64,000 nucleotides of DNA from Diplonema papillatum. Lineage: Eukaryota; Euglenozoa; Diplonemea; Diplonemida; Diplonemidae. The stretch lies in contig JAPJBO010000459.1 of assembly GCA_030068145.1 (NCBI GenBank), positions 1-64,000 of the forward strand, given 5' to 3'. The translations under genes and the position numbers were made by a program. Each line of letters begins with the position of its first letter. Positions within the stretch are counted from its first letter, which is position 1. Shown here in pieces: positions 4,541-56,847 of this stretch. A model generated the notes under the pieces. That model was not told where the DNA came from. It did not search any database and worked only from the letters and a program-made list of their open reading frames with translations.

Positions 4541-4880
4541 TTAAAATACCTCCCTCGAGTGGGTCACTCTGAGCCGTGGTTCCCCAACTCATTCCGCTAT
4601 TTTAACGTATGTTTAATTCGCCTTCCGACAAACAGGTCTCTTGCGGTTACGGCCCTTAGCTGGCCCGCTAAGCTATGGGACAGAGAGCCGACCGGCGAAG
4701 TCGCCCCGCGAGGCTACAGAGAGCCGTGGCCAGCGGCAGCCTGCACGACGGCAATAGCGACGATGGCGCTGGTGCACAACCGCGGCAGTTGATGCGACGC
4801 TCGAAGCTCTGGCGGGCTCGCGAGCTTGTGCTTGCTGGCCGTCGGCGTCTTTCACCTCGCATGTCCAGAGGGATTGTCCC
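4541..4880 (-). repeat. Terminal B repeat (B2) of the recombinase retrotransposon
   Basis: A 340-bp sequence starting TTAAAATACCTCCCTCGAG and ending GGATTGTCCC. It is identical to 6,367-6,706 except T versus C in GCAA(T/C)AGCG. It forms the 3' end of the element on the minus strand, 45 bp beyond the recombinase stop. Confidence 0.93.
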
Positions 4881-4925
4881 TTCGCCGAGTCAGCCCCCAA
4901 GCAGGCCAGGGGCCGCAACCAAAAC

Positions 4926-6356
4926 CTATGTCGCAGGTGGCGGAAAGGGAACCGTGGGTAAAAGCCCGCTCACTGCCTGGTTCCTTGCAGTGTACATGTG
5001 GGCTAGAGAGGTCGGGTTGTAGAAACGCACCGCCTCTACACAGTCCGGGTCCCTCAGGACCTTTTCTCCATAGTGCGTGACCATGTCCCCAGATGCCCAG
5101 TCACCCATCTTCTGGACTTGTATGGGGTCCATGCCCGCCTTCAACAGGGTGCAGCAGCCCCCTATCCTGGCGCTGTGAGTCAGGAATGGCACCCTGGAGC
5201 GTGCAGGGGCATGGCCTCGATTGAGGGGCTGCAGGATTCCTCGAGTCCTCGAGTTCCCTAGGAGGGCATCTCTGAACGAGGCGTAGATGGGGAAAGGGCA
5301 CAGGAGCCTCTTCCCCTGCGCCATGCGTTTCAGCAAGGTGAATACTTCGACAGGGCAGTACCGGATCGCTTGCGGAGCGCCATCGGGCGCTTCGGGCAGT
5401 AGCAACGGCGGAGCCAGCTCTATCTTCTCAAAAGTGAGGTGCCTGCTGCACGTGCCCTTCGACTTCGACATACCCCACTCCACCCTCACTTTGTCCTTGC
5501 TGACTTGGACCATGTCAGTCAGAATCGACTGCATGCTCGAGGACCTCAGGAGGGTGAAGTGCTCGCCCAGCAACTGCAGGGCAGCGCCGTACTCGCCTAC
5601 CGTCCGCACGAAACCGAAGACCTTCCGAAACTGAGCGGCGCCTAGGGGCTCGCCGCTTTCTGGATCAGGAGACGCCTTCTTCAGCGCCCTGATCATCCTG
5701 CGGACGTCGCCAGCGGGATCGTCGAGTACCCAGCCGCCTGCGATGTTCTCGGCTACAATGGCATTGATGACATTGTGCGGAGCCCTGTATCCATCGCCTT
5801 CCATACTCGACAGGTATCCTCCAAAGATTTCCAACCTCCTCACCGTCGTAGGGTATGGCTGGACACCCTCGCCCTCACACCACTCCCTGTACGTGCCCGT
5901 GTTGGAACGGTACACCCTCTTCGAGCTCGCCGCTGTATACAGGCCTCTCATGCGGGAGCGGGCGTCATCCGGAGCAACATCTTCGATAGCGCGCTTAAGC
6001 GCCTGCCGCCGTGACGTTGACCTTCCCCCCGTTGCTGATGCCGGCATGCATGGCACGGAGGGGGCCTGTTTCCGATCCCGCAACGAGTCCTGCAAGCGCT
6101 CGTACAGTTCCGGGCGAGCCAAAGGCGCTGGAAGTGCCCACAGCGGTAGCATCTCCAGGGCCTGAAGGGACATACCATCCGGAAGGCTCTGCAAACTCCT
6201 GCTCACCTCACTCCACTCATCCCCCGTGAACAAGCTCCTTAGGGAAGCACACTGATCCATCATCTTTTCAGGGGCAGGGCGGGCGGGAAGAAAAGATCGA
6301 GCTCCTGTTTGGTAATTTCGTTCCCTGCCGGGGCTTTGCACGAAATTAGCTGACAT
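4926..6356 (-). CDS. Tyrosine recombinase of the retrotransposon
   Basis: A 476-residue phage-integrase-family recombinase that would integrate the circular DNA form of the element. Likely active-site residues visible are Arg271 (LLRSSS), a Lys in SKSKG (about 298-300), His394 and Arg397 (THSARIGG), Trp420 (GDW, in place of the second His) and the nucleophile Tyr429 (THYGEK). The first ~130 residues are family-specific. The ATG (6,354-6,356) lies inside repeat A2, so the first 24 codons also occur, detached, in A1 at the far end. The gene lies between A2 and B2, separate from the gag-RT block. Stop at 4,926. Confidence 0.9.
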   Translation of the reverse strand: MSANFVQSPGRERNYQTGARSFLPARPAPEKMMDQCASLRSLFTGDEWSEVSRSLQSLPDGMSLQALEMLPLWALPAPLARPELYERLQDSLRDRKQAPSVPCMPASATGGRSTSRRQALKRAIEDVAPDDARSRMRGLYTAASSKRVYRSNTGTYREWCEGEGVQPYPTTVRRLEIFGGYLSSMEGDGYRAPHNVINAIVAENIAGGWVLDDPAGDVRRMIRALKKASPDPESGEPLGAAQFRKVFGFVRTVGEYGAALQLLGEHFTLLRSSSMQSILTDMVQVSKDKVRVEWGMSKSKGTCSRHLTFEKIELAPPLLLPEAPDGAPQAIRYCPVEVFTLLKRMAQGKRLLCPFPIYASFRDALLGNSRTRGILQPLNRGHAPARSRVPFLTHSARIGGCCTLLKAGMDPIQVQKMGDWASGDMVTHYGEKVLRDPDCVEAVRFYNPTSLAHMYTARNQAVSGLLPTVPFPPPAT

Positions 6357-6367
6357 TAAACTCTCAT
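6285..6367 (-). repeat. Internal A repeat (A2)
   Basis: 83 bp identical to 11,237-11,319. It carries the recombinase start codon and first codons. It abuts B1 at 6,367 with a 1-nt overlap (T), the internal junction expected from a circular intermediate. Confidence 0.93.
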
Positions 6368-6706
6368 TAAAATACCTCCCTCGAGTGGGTCACTCTGAGC
6401 CGTGGTTCCCCAACTCATTCCGCTATTTTAACGTATGTTTAATTCGCCTTCCGACAAACAGGTCTCTTGCGGTTACGGCCCTTAGCTGGCCCGCTAAGCT
6501 ATGGGACAGAGAGCCGACCGGCGAAGTCGCCCCGCGAGGCTACAGAGAGCCGTGGCCAGCGGCAGCCTGCACGACGGCAACAGCGACGATGGCGCTGGTG
6601 CACAACCGCGGCAGTTGATGCGACGCTCGAAGCTCTGGCGGGCTCGCGAGCTTGTGCTTGCTGGCCGTCGGCGTCTTTCACCTCGCATGTCCAGAGGGAT
6701 TGTCCC
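6367..6706 (-). repeat. Internal B repeat (B1)
   Basis: 340 bp matching the terminal B2 at 339 of 340 positions. It lies 90 bp beyond the RT-RNase H stop at 6,797 and directly before A2 on the minus strand. Confidence 0.93.
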
Positions 6707-6796
6707 AATGGCCCTTATCCCAATGGACCTTGGCGCTGGAAAAACTAGGGGGGAACGGAAGTCAAGGGAGTTTGTAGTGTTTCGGTCTTTCCTTCC

Positions 6797-8776
6797 TTAC
6801 GGCTCTGAGGACGCGGAAGCGCCACCGAGAACTTCCGCAATTGCCTCGTCGACAACCCGCTGCTCCACCCGCCGCCTCTCTGGCAAAAGGCCCCGGATGG
6901 GCAGCTCTGCCCAGGCGTGGCCGAGACGGCTGGGAAGGTCTGAGAGGTTGTCCTCCCCCGGTACCCTTTCGAACCATGCGCTGGCCCTCGATCTCGCTAG
7001 CCTCTCCCAGAAAGCGTGGACAGGGACCAGCAATTCCTTAGCCTTCGTCCGACCTTGAATAAGACTACCCAGCACAACGCTATTGTCGACCCACACTGAG
7101 ACTGCAAAATCGACCCGGTGGCCAAACCAGATCGCGAAAGCAACCGCGACGGCTACAAACTCAAAGTGATGGATTTTGAGAGTGGAACCCGAAGGGGGTA
7201 CGGGGTGCGAGTAGTACTCTATTCTAGTAGGTACTCCGTCTACAATCGTGGCCAGAACCGCGCCCAGACCAAAAAGGCATGCATCGGTGAGCAGGACGTA
7301 CCTGGTTCCTATGCCAGGCTGCGTTCTTCGGAGAGGCACCGTCCTTCCAAAGCACCGCTCTCCGGCGAACAAAGTCCTCACCCACCACGATAAGGAAGCC
7401 CGAAGATCCCTTCCTAGCTTAAAACCAGCAAACGTAGACGACGCATTGGCCCTCCTGAAGATCGCCTGAAGGGGAACACGGCCTACTCTCCCGAAGAGCG
7501 CCGACGTAGCGAAAGCAAGTTTCCCCGCCAGAGATGCTGCTTCACCTGGAGATAAGGAGTCGCGCCTCAGAACGCACTCAAGCATGTGTATCAGCCCCTT
7601 TCTTCTAGGATCCGAGAGCCTGACCTCGATTCCTCCCGATGTGATCGTGAAAATGAGACCGAGATGACGAAAACGGTTCCCCTGGGACGTCTTTTCTGCG
7701 TTGAAAGATGTGAGCAGTATATCCTGGAGCAGTTCGAGGGTATCGGCCAGGGCTCTGCTATCTGCGGCAAGCGTCGGAGATGCAAAGTCATCGTAATACT
7801 GACATAGGGGCAGCCGCAGACCACGTCTCACCACCCTCGCCAGGACCTTGGCGAAGGCATTATAATGCACCACCGCAGCTGTCTCTCCGAAGGACAAACG
7901 TTCCATCCGAAAAGACTTTATCTCCCCGTCCTCTGGGCTCTCAGCGATAACACACCTGCAGACAATGTCGTTCCTAGCGCGAAGCTGGCGATACGCGTCC
8001 TTGTGGTCGAGCCCTATGGACTGGAAAGTGGCATCAGGATTACACTCCAGCGCCCCGACAGCTACTTGCCGGGCCACTTCCACGAACACGTCGGCCGTGT
8101 CCAGCTTCACCGGGGTCGACATCTGCACAGCTTTGTTTACTAAGGCCATTCGCCCATCATCGCACGCCCGCTCCTTCACCCGGGAACCTTCCTCGTCAAA
8201 CTTCGTCTGACGAATGACGAACCTTCGAAGGTACACAGCATTCGCTGGCGGACAAACTTCGACCATGAAGCCTGCGGCGAGCTCCTTTCGCACCGAGCGC
8301 CAGATCGCCACCTTGTCCGTGCTGCCGGTTGACCTGATAGCCCGCACTGACCGCGCGAGGACCTCCGGTTGACGTCGAATCAGCTCCTCCACGGAAATCT
8401 CAGGGGCGACTCGAGGCGCCGGGGCGTACAGCCCCTCGTAACCCACCGAGCCTGACATCGGGCAACCCGTCCTCAGGTGATGCAGCAGGTCATCTACGCC
8501 CACAATGCCCAAATCGCAGAGCATCTCGCAAAGGAGCTCCACGTGACACGGCTTTCCGTCGTAGATAGGGAGCTCCGCAGCCCTCCTCCTCCAGTGAGCC
8601 AAGAACCGCAAGCGCATGCGCTGTGCTTCCGCAACTGGCGTGGTAGCCGCGTAGCTGATGGCCGCGGCCATCTCCTCGTCCAGCTGAGGCATCTCCTTTA
8701 TCGCCGGCATCGAGTCAAACGCTTCCTCAGCGAACTTGTGCCTCCTCAGCACATCTTGAATCTCGTCCTGTGACAT
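6797..8776 (-). CDS. Reverse transcriptase-RNase H of the retrotransposon
   Basis: A 659-residue polyprotein. The RT domain spans about residues 165-375, with the first catalytic Asp in GLDHKDAYRQL (257-260) and the YYDD box at 327-330. A DIRS-type RNase H follows: Asp498 (LLTDAC), Glu539 (HHFEFVAV), Asp564 (VWVDNS) and Asp613 in the ENLSDLPSR-like end (GEDNLSDLPSR). No protease or DDE integrase domain is present, which fits a recombinase-type element. It starts 207 bp after the gag-like stop, with a (TGA/TAA)n microsatellite in the gap (about 8,868-8,901). The frame is intact. Confidence 0.9.
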   Translation of the reverse strand: MSQDEIQDVLRRHKFAEEAFDSMPAIKEMPQLDEEMAAAISYAATTPVAEAQRMRLRFLAHWRRRAAELPIYDGKPCHVELLCEMLCDLGIVGVDDLLHHLRTGCPMSGSVGYEGLYAPAPRVAPEISVEELIRRQPEVLARSVRAIRSTGSTDKVAIWRSVRKELAAGFMVEVCPPANAVYLRRFVIRQTKFDEEGSRVKERACDDGRMALVNKAVQMSTPVKLDTADVFVEVARQVAVGALECNPDATFQSIGLDHKDAYRQLRARNDIVCRCVIAESPEDGEIKSFRMERLSFGETAAVVHYNAFAKVLARVVRRGLRLPLCQYYDDFASPTLAADSRALADTLELLQDILLTSFNAEKTSQGNRFRHLGLIFTITSGGIEVRLSDPRRKGLIHMLECVLRRDSLSPGEAASLAGKLAFATSALFGRVGRVPLQAIFRRANASSTFAGFKLGRDLRASLSWWVRTLFAGERCFGRTVPLRRTQPGIGTRYVLLTDACLFGLGAVLATIVDGVPTRIEYYSHPVPPSGSTLKIHHFEFVAVAVAFAIWFGHRVDFAVSVWVDNSVVLGSLIQGRTKAKELLVPVHAFWERLARSRASAWFERVPGEDNLSDLPSRLGHAWAELPIRGLLPERRRVEQRVVDEAIAEVLGGASASSEP

Positions 8777-8983
8777 CCGTCTAGACGATGGGGTAGCGTC
8801 AGCGACGCATCCCCGTAGGGAAGAAGACAGCGCAGAGCACTGTCTGGGATCGTGCCGATGAGACGGCTGATGATGATGATAATGATGATAATGATGATAG
8901 TGCTGAAGAGAAGGTAGAACTTCGGCTGCCAGCCGATTGACGGGGAAGGGAACAGAGAGGGTCGCTTCCGAGACATCCGGAAG

Positions 8984-10168
8984 TCAAATACCTGGCTTAG
9001 ACCTCTTTGCCGGAGGCTCGTCGTCAGGCTGAGAGCGGTTCCGTCCACGGCCAACTGCGCGCGTCGGGACCCTTGGCTGACGCTCATGAAGTGCCCGGGC
9101 CTGACGAGAGACTGGCAACCTGACCTCCCGCTGGATCGGAGGAGGGGCCTGAGGAGGAAGAATCTGAAGTTGGTGTTCTCGCCGTTCTCTCACACCTAGT
9201 GTGCCTGCATTCATGTTGAGGCTCAGGACAGTAGCGGTATCTAGGCAGAGCAGGCGTTCGGAGGCTGCAGTGAGGATGATGGTCCCCGGAACCGCCCTCC
9301 TCTCGCTCGCAAAGCGTCTCCTGGCTTGCTCGTCGTACTCGCGAGCCAAGGAGCACCCGAATCTGGCCGCGAGATCGCACACCAACGCCGGGTAGCCGAA
9401 GACAACAGGGAGGGGGTTCCTCCCGAACGCCCCTGTTAGGCCGGCGATGACCAGGTACCGTTGAAGGGCGCAAACAGTCTGCACGAAGGGGCGATGGCTG
9501 GCCGTAATCCACCCCGCCGTGACTGGTGTGTACGGCTCCTTGTGGATGTCCACGTATGGCAGTGCGACATCCGGCTCCCTCTCTACCTTCCTCTGAAACG
9601 CGTTCAGCTCGGTGTGGCTGGGAGTGAGCTCCCTGGGGAGATGCATAAGACCATGGATGGCGATCTGCTCGGCTACATCCAGGACGGTCAGCGGCTGGTC
9701 CTTTGAGCGGGCTGCCCTCTGGTCGTCGCGCCTGGCGTCGCTGTCCTTTTCCCGCTGCTCGTTGCAACGGAACCACTTCTTGGCAACCGAGCGGAACTTG
9801 GGCGGAAGGTCAGACGGCAAACTGTCGATGCCATCCACTGAGGAGCACTCCAAGAGGGAGCGATATGCAAGTCCATCGAGGGTCGTTGCGGCTACCACGA
9901 AGCCCGCGGGATCCTCCTGATAGAGGCCTGCCGCCCATGACTCGAAGATGACCGCGTGAAGCACGCGATGCCTCCTGGTCACCGTTGCGCGGCTTGCCCC
10001 CTTCCATTCCTCATTGGCCGCCTCCCGTATCTTCCTATACTGCACATCCGCGACCATCTGCAGCCACCCTTCGAGCACCGACAGCTCTTCAAAGACGTTG
10101 CTGGCTGACTCAATTGGAACGCTTCGTAGCGCCGCGACTCTACCATCCCAGAACTGGCCAAGCGACAT
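8984..10168 (-). CDS. Gag-like first ORF of the retrotransposon
   Basis: A 394-residue ORF at the position where these elements carry gag. It has a helical middle and a basic C-terminus (GRGRNRSQPDDEPPAKRSKPGI) that could bind nucleic acid or act as a nuclear signal. I see no CCHC zinc knuckle and no clear match to a named family. The role is inferred from position: upstream of RT, same strand, between A1 and RT. The start at 10,168 is the first ATG after the tandem-repeat leader. Confidence 0.7.
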   Translation of the reverse strand: MSLGQFWDGRVAALRSVPIESASNVFEELSVLEGWLQMVADVQYRKIREAANEEWKGASRATVTRRHRVLHAVIFESWAAGLYQEDPAGFVVAATTLDGLAYRSLLECSSVDGIDSLPSDLPPKFRSVAKKWFRCNEQREKDSDARRDDQRAARSKDQPLTVLDVAEQIAIHGLMHLPRELTPSHTELNAFQRKVEREPDVALPYVDIHKEPYTPVTAGWITASHRPFVQTVCALQRYLVIAGLTGAFGRNPLPVVFGYPALVCDLAARFGCSLAREYDEQARRRFASERRAVPGTIILTAASERLLCLDTATVLSLNMNAGTLGVRERREHQLQILPPQAPPPIQREVRLPVSRQARALHERQPRVPTRAVGRGRNRSQPDDEPPAKRSKPGI

Positions 10169-10179
10169 GTCGGATTACC

Positions 10180-10460
10180 TGCCTCCTTTGTTCCTAACAG
10201 CAAGCAGATCACCGAGAGCACGGTTGCCGAATACCAAAGAGAAACAACCTCCTCCAGCTGAGACAGCAAGTAGATCACCGTGAGAACGGTAGCACGCGAA
10301 TACCAGAGCGAAACAACCGTTTCAAGCCGAAACAAAGCAGAGTCACAATACCTCGGCTACCAGATCACCGCGAGAACGGTAGCACGCGAAAATCAGAGCG
10401 AAACAACCTCTTCAAGCCGAAACAAAGAAGAGTCACAATACCTGGGCTACCATACCCAAA
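10180..10460. repeat. 66-90-bp tandem repeat in the retrotransposon leader
   Basis: Three units begin AGATCACCG at 10,206, 10,272 and 10,362, with AACGGTAGCACGCGAA and GCGAAACAACC in each full unit. They lie just upstream (minus strand) of the gag-like start. Confidence 0.75.
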
Positions 10461-10494
10461 AAACCGTCCCGGCTAAGATCGTGGATCTCTTCGG

Positions 10495-11150
10495 GTGGCT
10501 GGCCACTCAACCGGGAAGATCCTCTCGGACCTCTTCAGGAGCAGGCTGGTTGGCCGCTTTCGCCTGGGTAGACCTGGTTGGGCCTCTTCAGGGGCAGGCT
10601 GGTTGGCCGCTCTCGCCTGGGTAGATCTGGTTGGATCTCTTCAGGGGCAGGCTGGTTGGCCGCTCTCGCCTGGGTAGATCTGGTTGGACCTCTTCAGGGG
10701 CAGACCCGGTGGTCGCTCTCGCCTGGGTAGATCCGGTTGGACCTCTTCAGGGGCAGGCCCGGTGGCCGCTCTCGCCTGGGTAGATCTGGTTGGATCTCTT
10801 CAGGGGCAGGCTGGTTGGCCGCTCTCGCCTGGGAAGATCTGGTTGGACCTCTTCAGGGGCAGGCTGGTTGGCCGCTCTCGCCTGGGTAGATCTGGTTGGA
10901 CCTCTTCAGGGGCAGGCTGGTTGGCCGCTCTCGCCTGGGAAGATCTGGTTGGACCTCTTCAGGGGCAGGCTGGTTGGCCGCTCTCGCCTGGGTAGATCTG
11001 GTTGGACCTCTTCAGGGGCAGGCTTGTTGGCCGCTCTTGCCTGGGTAGATCTGGTTGGACCTCTTCAGGGGCAGGCTGGTTGGCCGCTCTCGCCTGGGTA
11101 GATCTGGTTGGACCTCTTCAGGAGCAGGCCCGGTGGCCACTTTCAACCTG
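10495..11150. repeat. 53-bp tandem repeat array in the retrotransposon leader
   Basis: About 12 copies of a 53-bp unit containing GGTTGGCCGCTCTCGCCTGG. Because 53 is not a multiple of 3, every frame cycles through the same 53 codons and stays open, creating false ORFs (for example WTSSGAGWLAALAWVDLVG). It probably acts as an untranslated or regulatory leader. Confidence 0.85.
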
Positions 11151-11236
11151 GCAAGGGGGGAGGGATTGCCCAGGGGGCTGCCCCCCCTGAAGAATATCAG
11201 TTCCGGAAAGCGACAGGGCCCGCAATACATCAAACA

Positions 11237-11319
11237 GGGAAGAAAAGATCGAGCTCCTGTTTGGTAATTTCGTTCCCTGCCGGGGCTTTGCACGAAATTA
11301 GCTGACATTAAACTCTCAT
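11237..11319 (-). repeat. Terminal A repeat (A1)
   Basis: 83 bp, identical to A2, forming the 5' end of the element on the minus strand. It contains the first recombinase codons without the rest of the gene. Confidence 0.93.
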
Positions 11320-31997: not shown

Positions 31998-34900
31998 TTA
32001 GTACGGTGAGGTGTACAGGGGCCTTCTCGAGGTGGATAACTGCCTTGATAGCTGCGGCTCGAGGCCTCTGGCCGAGAGGTGATCCAGGAGCAAACTGACG
32101 ATGTTCGGGTTGCGCCGCGAGAACTGCAGCCAATCGCGCAGCGTCACGTACGGAGGCGCCAACCCCGCAGCGGCAGCATCGAACCCTAGCTGGGTCAACG
32201 ACGCTTGGACGACGGCGAACGGGAGACTCGACGCGCCGCGGCCCTGCGAGACGGTTAGAGCGACCCACGACGTAATCCCCGGTTTTTCCTGCTCAGGCAC
32301 GAGGCGCTGCCACAGAGAGTGCGCGAGGTCGGTGCGGGTCGAGAAGAAGGCCAGCCAAGCTTCCTTGGTCACGGCCGCGCCGGCGTGGGCCAAGAACGCG
32401 CGGAGGGACGGCGGAAACGCCGTGCGCGAGCCCCCGTCGGAGAACCCCCGCTGCAGCAGGCCCAGCAGCTCGGATGCTCCGGCAGCCGGCTCGTCGCTGC
32501 CCAGCAGGTGCAGCCAGAGGCCTTCCGGCACGCCCGCGTGGGGCAGGCCGCCGCCGCCGGCGGGAGAGAACTGCAAGCTCCTCCTCGTGTCAGCCAGGGA
32601 CCCGGGTTCATCCCCCCACGCGTCCAGCCACTCTCCCCTGGTGACCATGACAGACCCTCCGTCCTCCAAATTCCTGGACGGCATGCCGGCCCCGCGCAAG
32701 TACGAGACAGCGTCGCTCCTGAGCACCCCCCCAGTGCCCTTAGACAGCGTGTCCCACACCCGCTCGGCACCCCCACCGGACCCCCCCGTCTTCAGCGGCG
32801 ACACTCCGAGCAGCAGCTGGTGCATCCTGCGGGCCGCGGCCGGGTTCTCGCTGCAGAACTGCATCCACTCCCCGTGCGACAGCTCCTCGCGCCCGCCAAG
32901 GCCCGCCGGGGGCGACCCGGCTTCCGCGAGCAGCGCGCGGATGTCGCGGCCGCTCGCGAACGCCGATCCCCTCGACAGGTGGCCCCACGTCGAGTCCACC
33001 TCGCTCCTGCGGACGCGGGCGGGCGGGCTGCCCCTGCCAGCGTCCAGCCGCCGGGCCACGCTCGGGTTGTGGGCGCAGAATCGGAGCCATTCGTCGCGCG
33101 TGATCCTGCCGGAACCGTCCCTGTCCAGTTCGTCGAACAGGTCCCCCACGGTCGCTCTGTCCCAAGGCAGCCCGTTCTCCATCAGCAACTCCTGAATGTC
33201 GCTTCTTCTGGCGAAGGAGCCTCCCTTTGACAATCGATCCCAAGTTGCGTCGGCGTCGTTGTGTCGCAAGCCTGCACTACCATGTACAGTCGTGCCGAGC
33301 TGACGGGCCACATGCGGGTTTCGGTCGCAGAACCTGAACCATTCGTCTCGTGAAATCCTGCCGGAACCGTCCCTGTCTAGTTCGTCGAACAGATCCCCCA
33401 CGGTCGCTCTGTCCCAAGGCAGCCCGTTTTCCATCAACAACTCCTGAATGTCGCTGCGTCGGGCAAAGGATCCTCCCTTTGACAATCGATCCCAAGACGC
33501 AACTTGGGATTGATTGTCATTGTGGCGCAAACCTACACTACCATGTGCAGTCGTGCCGAGCTGACGGGCCACACGCGGGTTGCGGTCGCAGAACCTGAAC
33601 CATTCGTCGCGTGTAATTCTGCCGGAACCGTCCCTGTCCAGTTCATCGAACAAGTCCCCCACGGTCGCTCTGTCCCAAGGCAGCCCGTTTTCCATCAGCA
33701 ACTCTCGGATGTCGCTGCGCCTGGCGAAGGAGCCTCCTCTAGACAGCCGATCCCATGTTGCGTTTGCGTTGCTGTGCCGACCGTCAAGTGCGCCCAGCTG
33801 TCGGGCCACACGCGAGTTTCTGTCGCAAAATCTGAACCATTCGTCTCGAGTGATTCTGCCGGAACCGTCTACGTCCAGTTCATCGAACAAGTCTCCTACA
33901 GACGATCTGTCCCAAGCCAAGCCGGTTTCGAGTAGCAAGTCCTTGATGTCGCTTCGCCTTGCGTGGGTACTTCCTCTCGAAACACGTTCCCACAGTGCTT
34001 CATCTTCCCTGCGTTCGTTGCGCAGCGGAGACGAGGTGTAGCTATGAGGTCGCAGTTGTCTCGCCACGTGAGGGTTCCGGTCGCAGAATCTGAACCATTC
34101 ATCTCGTGTAATTCTGCCCGAGCCGTCCCTGTCCAACTCATCGAACAAGTCCCCCACGGTCGCTCTGTCCCAAGGCAGCCCGTTCTCCATCAGCAACTCT
34201 CGGATGTCGCTGCGTCTGGCGAAGGAACCTCCCTTCGATAACCGATCCCAAGCAGCATCGACATCGTTGTGTCGCAAACCTACACTACCATGTGCATTCG
34301 CGCCGAGCTGACGGGCCACACGCGGGTTGCGGTCGCAGAACCTGAACCATTCGTCGCGTGTAATTCTGCCGGAACCGTCCCTATCCAGCTCATCGAACAA
34401 GTCTCCCACGGTCGCTCTGTCCCACCGCAGTCCGGTTTCCATCAACAACTCCCGAATGTCGCTGCGTCTGGCGAAGGAACCTCCTTTAGACAGCCGTTGC
34501 CACGTTGCATCTACGTTGCTGTGGCGACCGTCGAGTGCACTGAGCTGACGGACCACGCGTGGGTTACGATCGCAGAATCTGAACCATTCATCTCGCGTGA
34601 TTCTGCCGGAACCGTCTCTGTCCAGTTCATCGAACAGGTCCCCCACGGTCGCTCTGTCCCAAGCCAACCCGCTGTCGATTAACAAGTCTCGGATGTCGCT
34701 TCGTCTTGCGTAGGTTGTTCCCTTCGAAACACGCGTCCACAATGCATCCACATCCCTTCGTCCGTGACGAAGCGGAGACGAGGTGTAACTCTGAGCTTGG
34801 CGGTCGCTAATGTCGTGCGAGCCTCGTACTCGTAACTGTCGGATCAGATGCGGGTACCTTTCACAGAAACGTAGCCACTCGTCCCGTGCCACTGTCCCCG

Positions 34901-37900
34901 AGCCGTCGTGATCCAATTCATCGAACAGGCCGCCCACGGTTTCGCTGTCCCAACGGAGGCCGGAATCAAGCAGCAAACCGCGGATGTCGCGTCGGAGTGC
35001 ACGGTATGACCCCTTCGACAGGTCTTCCCACAGTCTCTCTACATCTGCGCTCCCAGCCCTCGAGTGCCCGTACGGCGACGCATGCCCTCTCCCACGTAAC
35101 TGTCCAACAACCTGCGGGTATCGTTCGCAGAACCTCAACCATTCATTCTTACTTACTCGGCCAGAGCCGTCTACGTCTATCTCGTCAAAGATCTCCCCCA
35201 CAGTGTCCCTGTCCCAACGAAAGCCGGAATCAAGCAGCAAATCGCGGATGTCGCGTCGGAGTGCATGGTATGATCCCTTCGACAGTTCTTCCCAAAATCT
35301 TTCAACATCTGCACCACCCGCCCTCGAGCGTGTATAGGACAATCCGTACCCTTTCCCACGTAACTGTTCAACAACCTGCGGGTATCGTTCGCAGAACCTC
35401 AACCATTCATTCTTGCTTATCCTGCCAGAGCCGTCTACGTCCACCTCGTCAAAGATCTCTCCCACGGTGTCTCTGTCCCAACGAAGACCGGAATCAAGCA
35501 GCAAATCGCGGATGTCGCGTCGGAGTGCATGGTACGATCCCTTTGACAGATCTTCCCACAGTCTCTCTGCATCTGCACCACCCGCTCTCGAGCGTGTATA
35601 AGACGATCCATACCCTTTCCCACGTAGCTGCTCAACAACCTGCGGGTATCGTTCGCAGAATCTCAACCATTCATCCTTGCTTATCCTGCCAGAGCCGTCT
35701 ACGTCCACCTCGTCAAAGATCTCTCCCACGGTGTCTCTGTCCCATCGAAGACCGGAATCAAGCAGCAAATCGCGGATGTCGCGTCGGAGTGCATGGTATG
35801 ATCCCTTCGACAGATCTTCCCACAGTCTCTCTGCATCTGCACCACCCGCTCTCGAGCGTGTATAAGACGATCCATACCCTTTCCCACGTAGCTGCTCAAC
35901 AACCTGCGGGTATCGTTCGCAGAACCTCAACCATTCATTCTTGCTTATCCTGCCAGAGCCGTCTACGTCCACCTCGTCAAAGATTTCTCCCACGGTGTCT
36001 CTGTCCCAACGAAGGCCGGAATCAAGCAGCAAGTCGCGGATGTCGCGTCGGAGTGCATGGTATGATCCCTTCGACAGTTCTTCCCACAGTCGCTCTGCAT
36101 CTGCACCACCCGCCCTCGAGCGTGTATAAGACGGTCCATACCCTTTCCCACGCAACTGCTCAATAGCCTGCGGGTATCGTTCGCAGAACCTCAGCCATTC
36201 ATCCTTGCTCACCCTGCCAGAGCCGTCTCTGTCCATCTCGTCAAAGATCTCTCCCACGGTGTATCTGTCCCAACGAAGACCGGAATCAAGCAGCAAATCA
36301 CGGATGTCGCGTCGGAGTGCATGGTATGATCCCTTCGATAGTTCTTCCCACAGTCTCTCAACATCCGCACCTCCCACCCTCGAGCGTGTATAGGACAATC
36401 CGTGGCCTCGCCCACGCAACCGCTCAACAGCCTGCGGGTATCGATCGCAGAATCTCAACCATTCATCCTTGCTCACCCTGCCAGAGCCGTCTACGTCCAT
36501 CTCGTCAAAGATCTCCCCCACGGTGTCTCTGTCCCAACGAAGACCGGAATCAAGCAGCAAATCACGGATGTCGCGTCGGAGCGCATGGTATGATCCCTTC
36601 GATAGTTCTTCCCACAGTCTCTCAACATCCGCACCTCCCACCCTCGAACGTCGATACGACGATCCGTGCCCTTTCCCGCGTAACCGCTCAACAGCTTGCG
36701 GGTATCGATCGCAGAATATCAGCCATTCATCCTTGCTCACCCTGCCAGAGCCGTCTCTGTCCATCTCGTCAAAGATTTCCCCCACGGTGTCTCTGTCCCA
36801 ACGAAGGCCGGAATCAAGCAGCAAATCACGGATGTCGCGTCGGAGTGCATGGTATGATCCCTTCGACAGTTCCTCCCACAGTCTCTCAACATCTGCACCA
36901 CCCACCCTCGAGCGTGTATAAGACGACCCGTACTCTCTGCTACGCAACTGCTCAACAACCCGCGGGTATCGATCGCAGAATCTCAGCCATTCATCCTTAC
37001 TCACTCGGCCAGAGCCGTCTCCGTCCATCTCGTCAAAGATGTCCCCCACGGTGTCGCTGTCCCATCGAAGACCGGAATCAAGTAGCAAATCGCGGATGTC
37101 ACGTCGGAGCGCATGGTACGATCCCTTCGATAGTTTTTCCCACAGTCTCTCTGCATCTGCACCACCCGCCCTCGAGCGTGTATACGACGATCCATGCCCT
37201 TTCCCACGCAACTGCTCAACAACCTGCGGGTATCGATCGCAGAATCTCACCCATTCATTCTTGCTTATCCTGCCAGAGCCGTCTGCGTCCACCTCGTCAA
37301 AGATCTCTCCCACGGTGTCTCTGTCCCAACGAAGGCCGGAGTCAAGCAGCAAATCGCGGATGTCGCGTCGGAGTGCGTGGTATGATCCCTTCGATAGTTC
37401 TTCCCACAGTCTCTCTATATCTGCACCGCCTGCCCTTGAGCGGCTATCCGTGTCACCCCGTCGGGAGAACTGGTATGGGGAGGATGTCGCGCCATGCCCA
37501 GGCGGGCGCAACTGTGTAAGGACGCGTGGGTTTCGGTCGCAAAAACGCGTCCACTCGGCATGAGTCACTCTTCCCGAGCCGTCTCTGTCCAGTTCATCGA
37601 ACAAGTCCCCCACGGTCGCTCGGTCCCAAGGCAGCCCGTTTTCCATCAGTAACTCTCGGATGTCGCTGCGTCTGGCGAAGGAACCTCCCTTGGATAATCG
37701 ATCCCAAGAAGCGTCGGCGTCGTTGTTGCGCAAACCTGCACTACCATGTGCTGTCACGCCGAGCTGGCGAGCCACACGCGGGTTTCTGTCGCAAAATCTG
37801 AACCATTCATCTCGGGTGATCCTCCCAGAGCCGTCTCTGTCCAGTTCATCAAACAGGTCCCCCACGGTTTCTCTGTCCCAGGGCAATCCGGTGTCCATCA

Positions 37901-40900
37901 GCAACTCTTTAACGTCACCGCGCCTTGCGTAAGAGTCTCCGTTAGATAGCCGTTGCCACGTTGCATCCGCATCGGTGCGTCTGGAAGTTGCGCTGCCGTG
38001 TGCGACACCCAGCTGGCGGGCGATACGTGGGTTTCTGTCGCAGAACCTGGACCATTCGTTGCGAGTCACTCTGCCGGAACCGTCCCTGTCCAGTTCATCG
38101 AACAGGTCCCCCACGGTCGCTCTATCCCAAGGCAGCCCGTTTTCCATCAACAACTCCCGAATGTCGCTTCTCCTGGCAAAGGAGCTTCCCTTAGACAATC
38201 GATCCCAAGTTGCGTCGACGTCGTTGTTGCGCGAACCGACACTACCATGGGCTGCCACGCCGAGCTGCCGGGCCACACGCGGGTTTCGATCACAAAATCT
38301 GATCCATTCGTCTCGAGTAACTCTCCCCGAGCCGTCTCTGTCCAGTTCATCGAACAGGTCCCCCACGGTTGCTCTATCCCAAAGGAGCTCGTTATCATCA
38401 GCAACTCCCGAATGTCGCTACGTCTGGCGAAGGAACCTCCCTTTGACAATCGATCCCAAGCTGCGTCGGCGTCATTGTGTCGCAACCCCACACTGCCGTG
38501 TGCCGTCGCGCCGAGCTGACGGGCTACACGCGGGTTTCGGTCGCAGAATGTGAACCATTCATCTCGAGTAACTCTCCCCGAGCCGTCCATGTCCAGTTCA
38601 TCGAACAGGTTCCCAACAGTCGCTCTATCCCAAAGCAGTCCGTTTTCCATCAACAATACTCGGATATCGCTGCGTCTGGCAAAGGAGCCTCCCTTGGACA
38701 ATCGATCCCAACTTGCGTCGGCGTCGTTGTTGCGCAAACCTACACTACCATGTGCTGCCACGCCGAGCTGACGGGCCACACGCGGGTTGCGGTCGCAAAA
38801 TCTGAACCATTCATCTCGAGTCACTCTGCCGGAACCGTCCCTGTCCAGTTCATCGAACAGGTCCCCCACGGTCGCTCTATCCCAAAGCAGCCCGTTTTCC
38901 ATCAACAACTCTCGAATGTCGCCTCGTCTGGCAAAGGAACCCCCCTTGGATAATCGATCCCAAGTAGCGTCGACGTCGTTGTGTCTCAAACCTACACTAC
39001 CGTGAGCTGCCACGCCGAGCTGACGGGCCACACGCGGGTTTCTGTCGCAAAATCTGATCCATTCATCTCGAGTCACTCTGCCGGAACCATCTCTGTCCAG
39101 TTCATCGAACAGGTCCCCCACGGTCGCTCTGTCCCAAGGCAGCCCATTTTCCATCAACAACTCTCGGATGTCGCTTCTTCTGGCGAAGGAGCCTCCCTTG
39201 GACAATCGATCCCAAGTAGCGTCGACATTGTTGTGTCGCAAACCTCCTGCACTACCACCGTGTGTCGTCGCGCCGAGCTGGCCGGCCACACGCGGGTTTC
39301 GATCGCAAAATCTGAACCATTCTTCTCGAGTCACTCTGCCGGAACCATCTCTGTCCAGTTCATCGAACAAGTCCCCCACGGTCGCTCTGTCCCAAGGCAG
39401 CCCGTTTTCCATCAGCAACTCCCGAATGTCGCTGCGTCTGGCGAAGGAGCCCCCCTTGGACAGTCTCTCCCAAGTAGCGTCGACGTCGTTGCGTCGCAAA
39501 CCTGCAATGCCACCATGTGCCGCAGCTTCGAGCTGGCGGGCCACACGCGGGTTTCGGTCGCAAAATCTGGACCATTCTTCTCGGGTCACTCTGCCGGAAC
39601 CGTCGGTGTCGATCGAGTCGAAGAAATCGCCCACCGTGTCCCTGTCCCAAGGCACCCCCGCTTCAGACAGCAAGTCCCGTATGTCCCGGCGGTATGCGAA
39701 GTCGGAGCCTTTGGAAAGCTGATCCCACAGACGCCCGCCCCCGTCCCCAAGACCACGCGGGTGGCCGGCTGTCCTGGAGTGCAACCTGCAGCGCGCCACG
39801 AGCAGCCGCATCACGGAGGGGTGCCCGCTGCAGAACCGCTTCCATTCCTCGAGAGTGACCCGGCCGGAGTCGTTGCCGTCCATCGCGTCGAAGAGGTCGC
39901 CGACCGTGTGCCGGTCGAACTTCAACCCGGCGGCGAACAGGAGCTCTCGGACGTCTCGCCTGGCGACAGCTGTCCGCCCTTTGGACAGCTGCTTCCACAA
40001 CAGGTCGGCTCCGTCGTCGAAGGAGTGCGCTGGGTTTGTTAAGTCGAGGTCTTCTCTGAGGCTCGTGGTCAACACGTGGGCGGCCGACGGGTGCGACGAG
40101 CAGAACGCGTTCCATTCGTCGTGCGTGACGTGCCCGGATGCGTCGCGGTCCATGGCCGTGAACAGCGCCCCCGCCGTCTCCCGGTCGCACGGCAGCCCCG
40201 CCCGCGCCAGCGCGTCGCGGACGTCTTTGCCGAGGGCGTAGCTCTGCCGCTTGGAGAGCACCCGCCACGCGTCGTCCCGCGCCTTCGCCTTCCACTGCTG
40301 CACGATCAGCCCGGACACGCGGGGGTTCCGGCGGCAGAAGCTGGTCCACTCCGCCTCGGAGACGTGCCCGGAGGAGTCCGCATCCATCGCGCTAAACAGC
40401 TCGCCAGCGGCGTTCTGGTCCCAGGATATCCCGGCTTGTCCTAACAAGTCGCGCACGTCGGTTCGCAGGGCGAAGGATCGACCTTTCGACAGGTCGCGCC
40501 AGACGTCGTGCTCCCCTTGCTCCCGCTGCTTCAGGTGGCTCGCGATGAACGCAACGTCCCGTCGGTTGGACCGCGCGTAGCGGAGCCATTCGTCTCTGGA
40601 AACCCGGCCGGAGTGGTTCTGGTCCAACGCGTCGAACAAACCCTCGGCGGTCCGCTGGTCCCACGCTATCCCCGCCTTCACCAGCAGGTCGCGCACGTCC
40701 TGCCGCAGGGCGAAAGGCGCCCCCTTGGATAGCTCCCGCCATACAGCGGACTCCCCGCCGTGCTGCACGTGCCCCCCCCCGCTGCCACCGCTGCTGCTCC
40801 GCAGGGCGGAGCCGTGCGAGCTGCGCATCGTGTCGACGGCGCGCGGGTGGCCCCTGCAGAACCGCCGCCACTCGTCGAACGAGACTGTACCCGACACATC

Positions 40901-43900
40901 GCCGTCGAGGGCACGGAACAGATCCCCGGCCGATTCAGCGCTCCACGCCAATCCTGCGTGCGAGTCGAAAAAGTCGCGCACTTCCGCGTACCCAGCGGCC
41001 GACCTCCCCCCCGCCAGCCTGTCCCACAGGTACTGGACGAAGTCGTCGTCCTCCTGGTGCCGCACCGCGGAATCAGTCGCCCTGAGCCCCTGGGACGACG
41101 CGCGACGCATGGCCCGCAGCAGCCCCGGGTTCCTCCCGCAGAAGCCGGCCCACTCGTGGTACGAGATGGCCGGCGACCCGCCCGTGTACCCCGCCCCGGA
41201 AGAGAACAACTCGTCGTCGGCGACCGACTCCCACGGAACGTCGACGGCCCGGAGGTACCGGCGCACCTCCCAGGAACCAGCGGACGGGGCCCCGTTGGAC
41301 AGCTGGTCCCACGAGTCTCGGATCGCCGCTTCGTCGGGCGGAATGCCTGGCATTCCCCCGCCGGCGCCCAGCAGCTTCGCTGTGTCCGGGCTCCGGTGTG
41401 CGTAGCGCACCCAGTCCGCGAACGTGACGGTGTCGCGGCCGGTCTGGAGGGCCGCCGGGAAGTCCCACGGGACCCCCGCAGCCCGGAACGCGTCGGCCAG
41501 GTCCGCCTCGGCCGCGAACGGGCGCCCGCCGGCGATCGCACACCACGCGGAGATCGCGCCGGGCGGGATGCCGTCGAAGAAGGACGGGTGCCGCCGAGAG
41601 AAGCCCCACCAGTCCTCCCATGACAGCGGGTGCGTCGGGATCCCGCGGCTGGCCTCCGGCCGCCGGGCGACCAGATCAAGCAGCTGGTCCGGGAAGATCA
41701 GCTGGACCGACGGCGTCTCCGCCGTCAGCTGCTGCCAAATGATGCGCACGGCCTCCTCCACCGACACGCCGCCGTGCAACCGCTTCCGGGAAACCCCGGA
41801 GTCTAGCCGGCTGAACGACCTCCCCAGCGGCCGGTCTGCCTGCTCAAGGGCACGGGCCACACGCGGGTTTCGGTCGCAGAACTTTAACCACTCGTCTCGT
41901 GTAATCCTGCCGGAACCGTCTCTGTCCAGTTCATCGAACAAGTCCCCCACGGTCGCTCTGTCCCAAGGCAGCCCGTTTTCCATCAGCAACTCTCGGATGT
42001 CGCTGCGCCTGGCGTACGGGCTCCCTTTAGACAGCCGTTCCCACGTTGCGTCGCTGCGACCGCCGTGTGCACTTAGCTGGCGGGCCACACGCGGGTTCCG
42101 GTCGCAGAATCTGTACCATTCGTCTCGAGTCACTCTGCCCGAGCCGTCTCTGTCCAGTTCATCGAAGAGGTCGCCCACGGTCTCTCTGTCCCAAGGCAGC
42201 TCATTTTCCATCAGCAACTCCCGGATGTCGCTGCGTCTGGCGAAGGAACCTCCCTTTGACAATCGATCCCAAGTTGCGTCTGCACTGCTGTGCCGACCGT
42301 CTTGTGCACTTAGCTGTCGGGCCACATGCGGGTTTCGGTCGCAGAACCTGAACCATTCATCTCGCGTGATCCTGCCGGAACCGTCCCTGTCCAGCTCGTC
42401 GAACAGGTCCCCCACGGTCGCTCTGTCCCAAAGCAGCCCGTTTTCCATCAGCAACTCTCGGATGTCGCTGCGTCTGGCGAAGGAACCTCCCTTTGACAAT
42501 CGATCCCACGTAGCGTCGGCGTCGTTGTGTCGCAAACCTACACTACCGTGTGCCGTCGCGCCGAGCTGACGGGCCACACGCGGGTTGCGGTCGCAGAACC
42601 TGAGCCATTCATCTCGCGTGATCCTGCCGGAGCCGTCCCTGTCCAGCTCGTCGAACAGGTCCCCCACGGTCGCTCTGTCCCAAGGCAGCCCGTTTTCCAT
42701 CAGCAACTCTCGGATGTCGCTGCGCCTGGCGAACGAGCCTCTCTTCGACAACCGGTCCCACGCCGGGTCCGCGTCCGGCCTGCGCCCGGTGCTGGCGGCG
42801 GCGCCGTGCCAGAAGTCTCGGTCTTCGTCGTCGTCCGCGTGCCTTTGCCACGGGGAAACCGGGCGGCTAGAGCTCCTTGAGAACGTCCGGCCGTGCAGGG
42901 AAGGAGACCCCCGCGACAAGGTGCTCGCTGGGTCCCATCGGGTCGTCGAACCGACGACACGCTGGTCGGCACCCCCCCCATGGTGGGGACGCACGTGAGG
43001 GCTATGGCGCGGAAGGTTTTGGGGTGTCGGTGGCACCACGTCCGCCAGGTGTCCCACGAGACGGTGGGGGACGGCGAGTGCCGGATGGAGAGGGGGGAGG
43101 CGTGCCCCGGGTGGGGCTCGGCGGGGAAAAGCTCCCCGATGGATCGGGCGAGGTTTTCCGCGATGACGGAGGCCACGGTGGGGTTCTTCCCGCAGAAGGC
43201 CCGCCACTCCGCCCGGTCGACCAACCCCGTTCCATCGGCGTCGGCCGCGTCGAACAAGTTGTCCGCCGTCCGCCTGTCCCACGCGTACCCCGCGGTCCCC
43301 AGCAACGCCTGGATATCCCTCCGGCCCGCAGCCTCCGACAGCCCCGCCGCGAACGCCCACAAAAATCCGGCTACATCCACGCCCCCTCCCCTCTGCGCCT
43401 TGGCCCCCGCGAGACCGGCCGACACGGGAACGCCGCGGGTCTCCAAGTCCGTCTTGTCCAGCCGCTGGCCGCCTCTCGTCAGCACGTCCCACACTTTTTC
43501 GACGGCGGCCGCCGGCGGAGGGGGTGTGGGGGGGTGCCCGTTGGGGTGAGACCTCCGCGCGGCGCGGCCGGCGCCCCGCAGCGGCGACGGCGGCGAGGCG
43601 AAGAGGAATCCCGTGCGGGGCCGGTCGAAGAGGTAGTCGACGAGCTGCGGGTGCTCGCTGCCGAACCGGGACCACTGCGCGAAGGAGACGCGGCCGGTGC
43701 CGCGTGTGTTCAGGCGCTCGAACCACTCCTCGACGGCGGCGAAGTCCCACTGGGAGCCGCACTGCAAGAGCAGCTGGTGCACCTCCCCCAGCAGGACGTA
43801 CCGCTTGTCGGTCGCGTCGACCGTCTGGAACACCGCCTTCAGCTTGTGCTCCAGCGTGTAGTCCACCACCACACCCCCAGGCGCGCACGACACCACGACA

Positions 43901-44439
43901 GCCTCCCCTAACGGGTCCGGAATCACCCCAGGACCCTCCAAGTTGTCGACTTCGCCCGATTCCGGCTGGAAGACGTACAACTGCGCGCCATTCGGGACCG
44001 TTTTCGTGTCCCTGACCTCCGTCCATCGCCGGCTGCTCGAATGGTACCGGTGGATTTGATCCGCGCGGAACACGCCCGGGTCTGGCGGTGAGGATGCGTC
44101 GCGCCTCGCTATCCTAGCGGACGTCGCGTCTTTCGGGTTGATGCCCCAGGCAGCGATGGACCGGCTCCTGCAGGCTTGAAACTCGCGCGTGAAGTGCCAT
44201 TCGACGACGGCGATCAGCTCTTCGAGGGTGGGGCGGCCGTCGTTGCACAGGGCTTGGGAAGAGGCAGGATCCCCGGTGGAGAGGTCGTGCTGGCTCTGGC
44301 TGCGGGAGAGCGGGTGGTGGTCGGGGCGGAAGGCGAAGCGGACGTTCCGCTTGCGGCCGTGCACGTCGGCCGCGACGTTCACGCGGTACTTCCGCTGCGC
44401 AGCCTGGTCGCCAACGCCAAGACTGATGCCCCCGCCCAT
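31998..44439 (-). CDS. Giant EF-hand repeat protein, in three frames
   Basis: From ATG 44,439 to stop 31,998, about 4,150 codons with no evident intron. Two single-base frame changes split it: at the C8 run 42,972-42,979 (one more G on the coding strand restores frame) and near 38,392-38,397 (one base missing in a repeat unit). The start MGGGIS fits an N-myristoylation signal. Residues ~1-480 are mostly unique, with one canonical loop (DADGTGLVDRAE). About 35 more canonical EF-hand loops follow, typically DRDGSGRITRDE, each in an 82-88-residue unit W..LSKG..A.R.DIR.LL...GL.WDR.TVG.LFDELDRDGSGR.TRDEW.RFC. The unit looks like a degenerate plus a true EF-hand. The last ~350 residues are diverged units and a unique end. 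Likely a cytosolic or membrane-attached Ca2+-binding protein. No family name is assigned. Confidence 0.8.
34870..37440 (-). repeat. Y-class EF-hand units: ten copies, 264-bp period
   Basis: Within the EF-hand gene, ten 88-residue units share SYHALRRDIRDLLLDSGLRW and FDEVDVDGSGRISKNEW-type loops. The 264-bp spacing is exact across 35,413, 35,677, 35,941, 36,205 and 36,469. The flanking units are a second class (SFARRSDIRELLMENGLPW). Antisense frames stay open here because of the repeat and are not genes. Confidence 0.85.
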
Positions 44440-55127: not shown

Positions 55128-56561
55128 TCAGCACGCGCCGCCCGGCGGGTAGCCTCCGCCGTACGGGTTGCCGCCGTACGGGTTGCCGCCGTACGGGTTG
55201 CCGCCTTGCGGGGGGTACCCGCCGCCGCCTTGCTGCGGGGGGTACCCGCCGCCTTGCGGGGGGTAGCCGCCGCCTTGGGGGGGGTAGCCGCCGCCTTGGG
55301 GGGGGTAGCCGCCCCCCGGCTGCGGCGGCCCGGCGACGGGCGCGACGCGAGCGCCGGAGATGGGGCCGGAGAGCGCGAACGGCGCGCTGAGGTCGACCGG
55401 CTTCGAGCTCGAGAGCTGCGGGATCTGCTTGAAGCCCTTCTGCTTCAGGTCCACCCGCATCTGCTCGAGGAGGTCGACGACGCGCAGGTTCTTCTGCCGG
55501 TGCAGCACCGCCGCCATGGCGTTCGTGCACGCTCCGCCGGCGCCGCCCGGACCGGACCCCGACGGGAGGCCGAATTGCTGCACGTTGGACACATCCGCCG
55601 AGGTCTGCGCGTCGTCGCACCCCGAAAACATGACGACGTCGCCCTGACACTGCGTCTTGCCGTCGGCCGAGAAACCCGAACCCCCGCCGCCGCCGCCGCC
55701 GCCGCCGGTGAAGTCGGAGAGGTTGATGTTGCCCTTGAAGAACTCGCCGGCGAGCTTCTTCCCGAGGGCCTTCCGCTTCCGCTTGTCCATCAGCTGCATC
55801 GCGAGGTGCGCCGGGTCCTTCAGCGCCTCTTGCATCGCGTTTTGCGTGGCCTTGAACGCGAACGGCAGGTCCATTGCTGTCCCGGAATGGCAGCAATCCA
55901 TGACCGCTGTCATCCGGACCCCTGCGGGCAGAGGCCGCACCAAGCAGTTGAAGATGGTGTCGTCGGTGATCTGCCCCGCCTGCTTGTAGTCCACGGGGAT
56001 GAGGGTCTCGTCGAAGCCGTCCTTCTCGTCGCCGTCGTTGTCCTTCTGCTGCCCGCCGTGCCCGGAGTAGTGGAAGAACAGCGAATCACCCGGGCGGTTG
56101 TTCGACGCGAGCCACTGGAAGGCCTGCAGCATCTCGTTCTTCGTCGGGTTCTTCGCCCCCGGGAAGGATCGGTCGTCGACCAGGACCACCTCTTGGTACG
56201 ACCCCCCGGCAAACCCCATGTCCCGCAGCAGCTTCTGCATGGTTTTCACGTCGTTGACGCACCCGCGGAGCTCGCCCTGCTGGCCGTGATAGTTGATGCC
56301 GATGAGGAGCGCCTTTTTGTTCCCCGATCCGTGCGACGCGGGGGCCTGGCCGTGGCCCTGCTGCGGCTGGTATTGCTGCTGCTGCTGCTGGTGGCCCGAA
56401 GAGCTGGGCTTCGCGGGCTTTCCTCCTATTTTACCGTCGCCGTCGAGGTCGATTCCGAGCTTCGACTCGGCCATCTTCATCAGCTTGTCCATTTTTTTGC
56501 CTCCTTTCTTTTCTTTCTTTGTTGTTTCTTCCCTGTTTTTCAACACTTTTCCGTAAAACAT
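55128..56561 (-). CDS. Type I metacaspase with C-terminal Gly-Tyr-Pro-Pro repeats
   Basis: A caspase-fold cysteine protease that would cleave after Arg/Lys. p20 begins at KKALLIGINY (83-91). The catalytic His168 is in FHYSGHGG and Cys224 in MDCCHSGTA. p10 carries MFSGCDDAQTSADV. There is no long p20-p10 linker, so type I, although a Gly9 run lies before p10. Unusually the low-complexity repeat (GGGYPPQ, then NPYGGNPYGG, ending GGAC) is at the C-terminus, not in an N-terminal prodomain. The N-terminus has [12 protein letters not shown], half an EF-hand loop. M24 (56,492) is an alternative start and aligns better with the related gene at 63,420. No intron is seen. Likely cytosolic. Confidence 0.9.
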   Translation of the reverse strand: MFYGKVLKNREETTKKEKKGGKKMDKLMKMAESKLGIDLDGDGKIGGKPAKPSSSGHQQQQQQYQPQQGHGQAPASHGSGNKKALLIGINYHGQQGELRGCVNDVKTMQKLLRDMGFAGGSYQEVVLVDDRSFPGAKNPTKNEMLQAFQWLASNNRPGDSLFFHYSGHGGQQKDNDGDEKDGFDETLIPVDYKQAGQITDDTIFNCLVRPLPAGVRMTAVMDCCHSGTAMDLPFAFKATQNAMQEALKDPAHLAMQLMDKRKRKALGKKLAGEFFKGNINLSDFTGGGGGGGGGSGFSADGKTQCQGDVVMFSGCDDAQTSADVSNVQQFGLPSGSGPGGAGGACTNAMAAVLHRQKNLRVVDLLEQMRVDLKQKGFKQIPQLSSSKPVDLSAPFALSGPISGARVAPVAGPPQPGGGYPPQGGGYPPQGGGYPPQGGGYPPQQGGGGYPPQGGNPYGGNPYGGNPYGGGYPPGGAC

Positions 56562-56587
56562 GACAGTGAACCTGGGTAGTGCTGCTC

Positions 56588-56847
56588 GGGCGATCGGTCG
56601 TCGACCAGGACCACCTCTTGGTACGATCCCCCATGTCCCGTAGCAGCTTCTGCATGGTTTTCACGTCGTTGACACACCCGCGGAGCTCGCCCTGCTGGCC
56701 GTGGTAGTTGATGCCGATGAGGAGCGCCTTTTTGTTCCCCGATCTGCGCGACGCGGGGGCCTGGCCGTGGCCCTGCTGCGGCTGGTATTGCTGCTGCTGC
56801 TGCTGGTGGCCCGAAGAGCTGGGCTTCGCGGGCTTTCCTCCGAGTCG
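56588..56847 (-). pseudogene. Truncated duplicate of the metacaspase 5' region
   Basis: It matches 56,163-56,425 closely, covering codons from the Gln-rich linker to the VVLVDDRS region, with a ~10-bp deletion where the gene has GFAGGS. It lies just upstream (minus strand) of the metacaspase start and ends abruptly where the inverted-repeat element begins. Confidence 0.85.

Follow-up and report, generated by a model that had tools for sequence, protein, structure and literature searches.

The 64,000-nucleotide stretch of Diplonema papillatum DNA analysed here (the window; positions 1 to 64,000 of contig JAPJBO010000459.1, assembly GCA_030068145.1) carries an element that is very probably a young DIRS-order retrotransposon. 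It has split direct repeats, is made up of two modules in tandem and would probably move by way of a circle. The first module is A1-gag-RT/RH-B1 and the second is A2-YR-B2, where A and B are the repeats, RT/RH is reverse transcriptase with RNase H and YR is a tyrosine recombinase. RT, RNase H and tyrosine recombinase occur together in this one element, which is the mark of the DIRS order.

Structure of the element

The window copy lies on contig C459 in a genome of 271 Mb and 2910 contigs. In sense direction its order is A1, leader, gag, RT/RNase H, B1A2, YR and B2, and all three open reading frames (ORFs) share the minus strand (Table 1). A sequence-only reading of the window had proposed A1-gag-RT/RH-B1A2-YR-B2, with identical A repeats, one mismatch in 340 bp of B and three open ORFs, and repeats and ORFs indeed sit where it had put them. 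Its span of 4541..11319 had the right start and the right repeats, but the outer end had to be corrected to 11318, since the adjoining base changes with the flank across other copies. The termini of the element, TGAGAG... and ...TATTTTAA, were set by empty sites, and at the internal joint TATTTTAA is followed directly by TGAGAG, so that the two element ends are joined exactly. The RT ORF ends 90 bp before B1. The 422-bp B1A2 stretch is found with 100% identity at 13 places in the 271 Mb genome, the window included, and chance is therefore no concern for the repeats. An imperfect 16-nt inverted repeat in A2 (6306-6321 / 6340-6355) is a candidate YR binding site. The minisatellite of the leader has a 53-bp unit in 11.4 copies (10527-11129; Tandem Repeats Finder, TRF), and the 90-bp duplication lies at 10272-10452.

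Table 1 Features of the element in the window.
Feature	Position	Strand	Basis or remark
Whole element, 6778 bp	4541-11318	minus (sense)	repeat comparison; sister copies L015 and L016 with exact empty sites
A1, 5' terminal split direct repeat, 82 bp	11237-11318	minus	identical to A2
Leader	10169-11236	minus	holds 53-bp minisatellite and 90-bp duplication
gag-like ORF, 394 aa	8984-10168	minus	open frame; "gag" by position only
RT/RNase H ORF, 659 aa, YYDD	6797-8776	minus	matches below Pfam's cut-offs; motif
B1, internal repeat, 340 bp	6367-6706	minus	repeat comparison
A2, internal repeat, directly joined to B1	6285-6366	minus	82/82 bp same as A1
YR gene	4926-6263, likely ATG 6261-6263; longest ORF 4926-6356, 476 aa, into A2	minus	family comparison for start
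B2, 3' terminal repeat, 340 bp	4541-4880	minus	one position differs from B1

The order recurs in divergent families

The sample of family 1, to which the window copy belongs, consists of the window and 18 further loci that were fetched, 19 in all. The order RT-B1-A2-YR-B is present in 13 of them (the window and L009-L020); B2 is cut in L009 and L017, and in L010 A1 was not seen within the fetched stretch. The remaining six loci (L021-L026) are partial or rearranged, and in none of them does the YR lie upstream of B1. Family 2, whose DNA is 69-79% identical to that of family 1 in RT, YR and B and about 92% in A, has RT-B1-A2-YR in all nine loci (L027-L035), with B2 seen in six. Five of six further loci with a YR just 45-61% identical keep the order as well. 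Among them L036 of family 3, whose YR is 61% identical, is a complete element in which neither A1 and A2 (77 bp) nor B1 and B2 (297 bp) differ, and the short stretches of families 4, 5a, 5b and 6 (L037-L040) have B on both sides of the YR, 99.7-100% alike. Families 5a and 5b are 98% alike in B-A and are therefore regarded as subfamilies. The sixth locus, L041 of family 7, is an A-YR-B unit without B1. Flags of "1 TGA" raised for family 3 were dropped; the RT and YR frames of L036 finish before the query does.

A wider count gave the same picture. Among the matches listed, a B-A joint lies directly upstream of 45 of 50 YR genes, namely 14/17 in family 1, 15/16 in family 3, 9/10 in family 4 and 7/7 in family 5a. 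The rows counted are 17 of family 1, 14 of family 3 at 61% identity plus two shorter ones at 59%, ten full-length rows of family 4 at 54%, and seven of family 5a. Outside the count stand family 2, more distant rows, C2289 and C176 (shorter rows resembling family 4, each with B-A upstream), and family 5b, with B-A at four of six YR rows among the matches listed. The five YR genes without an upstream B-A are two A-YR-B units (C760, C1115), a composite (C125), a fragment (C2308) and C2595.

The search of the genome for other copies thus gave a stable repeat order and, in family 1, no locus with the YR upstream of B1, and the YR retrotransposon with its YR between A2 and B2, as first read from the window, is a stable family arrangement. 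That a standard A1-...-YR-B1A2B2 element or two adjacent insertions produced the order accidentally at one locus deserves practically no credence and was rejected: tandem or composite copies do occur (L010 with two YR units; L022), but the order recurs throughout most of family 1, all of family 2 and families as divergent as those above.

Age and variation of the copies

B1 is the same as in the window in 12 of the 13 ordered copies of family 1 (window included), L020 having three changes. Of the 13, four (window, L011, L014, L019) have private changes in B2, as does the composite L022, and the one change in A1 is in L014. Among the rows listed, most copies reach an identity of 99.9-100% in their coding parts; lower values were obtained for L009 (YR), L016 (RT) and L018 (gag). 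Judged from its near-identical copies, family 1 moved recently, in keeping with what the window alone, with its identical A and one B change, had suggested. Otherwise near-identical copies differ in leader length, which ranges from 917 to 1651 nt across 12 measurable loci; the length of the minisatellite also differs between near-identical copies (leaders of L009-L022), and L036 of family 3 has a tandem array at the equivalent place in its leader (1773-2740).

The loci of family 2 share frame breaks, in the YR at about codon 127 (eight of nine loci) and in the RT at about codon 241 (six of nine) and about codon 380 (eight of nine). This suggests that broken copies may have been multiplied in trans.

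Insertion sites and a possible route of transposition

Empty sites were searched with the joined flanks (110+110 nt) of nine copies. For L015 all 220 of 220 bases match at 15 other places and for L016 at 25, and neither insertion shows a duplication or a loss of target sequence. Immediately left of A the sequence is rich in A/T (74 of 84 bases over the final six positions in 14 family 1 copies); to the right of B2, no common motif was apparent by eye.

The circle model of YR retrotransposons predicts exact insertion and a B-A joint like that in the internal B1A2. Exact insertion, the B1A2 joint and a Cre-like YR fit a putative circle-mediated integration by the YR. RT would copy the RNA of the element, and the internal B1A2 would be a spare end joint from which the ends could be completed, giving a circular cDNA that carries a B-A joint. 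Through the YR this joint would then recombine with a chromosomal site that is short and A/T-rich. A passage on DIRS1 that bears on the model is found in PMC3266345 (this and all other papers are cited from excerpts).

Stand-alone units and the module question

Three families have A-YR-B units without B1. L021 (C760, family 1) has an open YR between non-element flanks, and C1115 (L049, family 4) consists of a non-element flank, A, a YR frame of 481 aa that is open, and B. L041 (C38, family 7) is flanked on either side by a piece of one and the same 21-bp tandem array (678-747 / 2617-2666, sense), as if the array had been split; its B and the B of family 4 are 76% identical, and the catalytic histidine is missing from its YR. 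L010 carries its two YR units in tandem. The complementary unit may be seen in L023, where gag, RT and B are present and the YR is absent. At C213, C693 and C275, B has its normal upstream sequence and no A2 after it. Finally, L042 (C300, 54-429) and L044 (C370) of family 3 are solo A-B units, in which A and B are joined directly, with non-element DNA on both sides; the two joints differ by 3 nt. A direct A-B joint is what a B1A2B2 element would be expected to leave as its solo form, as proposed for Ngaro of Cafeteria (PMC8547959), but not what the present arrangement would leave. Splicing as the source of the solo A-B found no support: by eye, no donor and acceptor fitting both joints was seen.

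Two further arrangements were seen. In L022 an identical duplication of 751 bp (5' flank plus A; sense 1071-1821 / 6513-7263) precedes both A-gag-RT (truncated) and A-YR-B; it results either from a local duplication or from two haplotypes joined in the assembly. L043 (C854, 65657-66743) has three tandem copies of the family 3 B with a period of 399 bp; one spacer was read and is not A.

The A-YR-B units in three families and the solo A-B in one suggest that the element may consist of two A...B modules that can separate. The A-YR-B units could be due to homologous recombination: stand-alone A-YR-B and gag-RT-B would most simply be products of recombination between A1 and A2 or between B1 and B2, comparable to solo long terminal repeats. 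It is tempting to go further and to assume that each A...B module is mobile on its own, with A-YR-B as a Crypton-like unit freed by the YR at the two B-A joints, and A-gag-RT-B and A-B carried in trans. The three units without B1, the second YR unit of L010, B without a following A2 at L023, C213, C693 and C275, and the 3-nt difference between the two solo joints would all agree with this. We nevertheless regard it as rather unlikely, because recombination between A1 and A2 or between B1 and B2 yields A-YR-B and A-gag-RT-B without any new mobility, and because one clean A-YR-B per family was found, and no multi-copy series. Moreover, the YR of L041 is the one without the catalytic histidine, L022 may be a haplotype join, and no RT is present at C213, C693 and C275 among the matches listed.

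A related reading, which we hold to be unlikely, sees in the element a fusion whose parts can still come apart, namely a retro-module, A-gag-RT-B, and a complete Crypton-like A-YR-B, whose YR can release, multiply and reinsert its own gene, A-B riding along. Release of the YR gene would be possible because the circle would carry two B-A joints, which flank the YR. If true, the origin proposed for these transposons, from a Crypton plus a retroelement, could be seen here in a living system.

We return to the DIRS-order retrotransposon with a circle route and simple recombination products. Some points speak against it. For the flanks of the other seven of the nine copies no spanning match was found among the 40 scored places, but all of these were taken up by L015 and L016. 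A1 was seen only in families 1-3, and elsewhere the assignment of A2 rests on sequence similarity. The differences between B1 and B2 within copies are private and hence provide no test of repeat regeneration by RT. The solo A-B of L042 and L044 is not simply explained by A1 x A2 or B1 x B2 recombination here, and the RNA, cDNA and circle steps are those that we infer from DNA.

Proteins of the element

The gag ORF has no Pfam match, and a search for the CCHC-type zinc finger, C..C....H....C, gave no motif of that type in gag or RT. A homologue of gag is present at the equivalent place in family 3 (39% identity over 307 aa). The RT/RH ORF has at least 70 matches within its own genome; no relative of the RT was found among solved structures, and the collections viral_contigs and genome_contigs yielded no relatives. 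RNase H, RT and phage integrase were matched in Pfam, all below Pfam's cut-offs. There is no methyltransferase among the Pfam matches at E up to 1 and no [DNS]PP[YFW] motif in the three ORFs.

A profile search with the YR matched chains of Cre, with a best E of 4.7e-08; at E up to 0.1 there are 17 distinct sequences, one of which is the Cre variant Tre. The predicted catalytic residues are R271, K298, H394, R397, W420 and Y429 (numbering of the 476-aa ORF), with presumed roles as in Cre. Seven of the eight family representatives were aligned, family 2 being left out for its broken frame; the RT alignment comprised two RTs. R271, K298, R397, W420 and Y429 are invariant across the seven YRs, and H394 is absent solely from the family 7 locus L041.

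Start of the YR gene

The YR start codon had been placed inside A2 by the sequence-only reading. The window indeed has an ATG in frame with the YR there (6354-6356), with 24 codons within the repeat, but it is not conserved. In a comparison of eight representatives (families 1, 2, 3, 4, 5a, 5b, 6 and 7), this place has no ATG in 4, 5a and 5b, an ATG out of frame in 3 and 6, and a stop after six codons in 2; the frame is open into the YR in families 1 and 7. In all eight, counting from where the compared A2 motif starts, an in-frame ATG follows 91-105 nt downstream, and it lies outside A2 where the end of A2 is known (families 1-3). Since this downstream ATG is in frame in 8/8, whereas the ATG in A2 is open in 2/8, the YR most likely starts just downstream of A2, at 6261-6263 in the window, and the ATG in A2 is most likely incidental to family 1. 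A2 is conserved as DNA in the eight representatives, yet with indels that change the frame, and A is probably kept as DNA, not as coding sequence, serving as a site bound by the YR and as promoter or 5' untranslated region. That the YR truly begins at the ATG in A2, in which case one stretch of 24 codons would be read in both A1 and A2, would agree with the open frame of family 1 and L041; in view of the six representatives in which that ATG is absent, out of frame or soon stopped, of the downstream ATG shared by all and of the conservation of A2 across frame changes, we consider it quite improbable.

Just ahead of the proposed YR start, at about 6264-6290 of the window, lies a pyrimidine-rich tract, TTCTTCCCGCCC..., that is alike in all eight representatives and could serve as a promoter element or as a 3' splice site.

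Other features of the window

On the minus strand at 32001-44113 there are very long open frames with many EF-hand repeats, and tandem units 237-264 bp in length. A caspase (Peptidase_C14) domain is encoded by an open frame at 55131-56660, also on the minus strand.

Comparison with known systems

The initial description of the window had taken a contiguous B1A2B2 with the YR upstream as typical of PAT/Ngaro-type elements, and had thus marked the order found here as unusual. For PAT-type elements this is not supported, and a claim of novelty fails. In the excerpts of Szitenberg et al. 2014 (PMC4157794), Kangaroo and the nematode form of Pat1 have their internal repeats between methyltransferase and YR, and these published families share the order of the element; nematode- and echinoderm-form Pat1 differ in the place of the internal repeats. 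A YR behind internal repeats is thus an established arrangement, which corrects a possible over-claim.

Nematode-form Pat1 resembles the element in its split direct repeats and in the position of the internal repeats between the RT-side domains and the YR; it differs in having a methyltransferase and a Gag zinc finger motif, neither of which was found here (PMC4157794). Kangaroo of Volvox carteri shares the position of the internal repeats and has no zinc finger, but its YR is inverted, whereas the ORFs of our element are on one strand, and no methyltransferase was found in the latter. The algal Toc3 PAT, also without zinc finger and with its YR in the same direction, is placed in the methyltransferase-bearing DIRS group in the same excerpts. 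Ngaro has no methyltransferase, has split direct repeats and ORFs for gag, RT/RH and YR, and has solo A-B in Cafeteria (PMC8547959). However, in Ngaro and Viper the internal repeats are downstream of the YR (PMC4157794), and the Ngaro structure is A1-[ORFs]-B1A2B2 (PMC4157794, PMC8547959), whereas the YR of our element stands between A2 and B2. Ectocarpus is reported to hold 15 Ngaro and five PAT-like families (PMC12477816).

The element therefore fails one feature that defines PAT (the methyltransferase) and one that defines Ngaro (repeats downstream of the YR), although in its working it is like the two groups. By descent it may be a Ngaro whose YR was moved behind the internal repeats and not a relative of PAT that lost its methyltransferase. 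We see this as a real possibility that falls somewhat short of an even chance: no methyltransferase domain or motif was found and just 90 bp separate the RT ORF from B1, but in its repeat order the element agrees with nematode Pat1 and Kangaroo and departs from Ngaro, and in C. briggsae one lineage of Pat1 is reported to lack the methyltransferase (PMC4157794). In the excerpts covered, to which the original Kangaroo and PAT papers do not belong, no description was found of this order in a methyltransferase-free element outside nematodes, which is a weak negative.

What is new here, next to Pat1, Kangaroo and Ngaro, is the order without a detectable methyltransferase or CCHC motif, together with stand-alone A-YR-B (three families) and solo A-B (one family). 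The family is young and has many near-identical copies, defined ends with empty sites, and stand-alone A-YR-B and A-B units; therefore, the circle joint, the use of the internal repeats and the release of modules are directly testable in one host.

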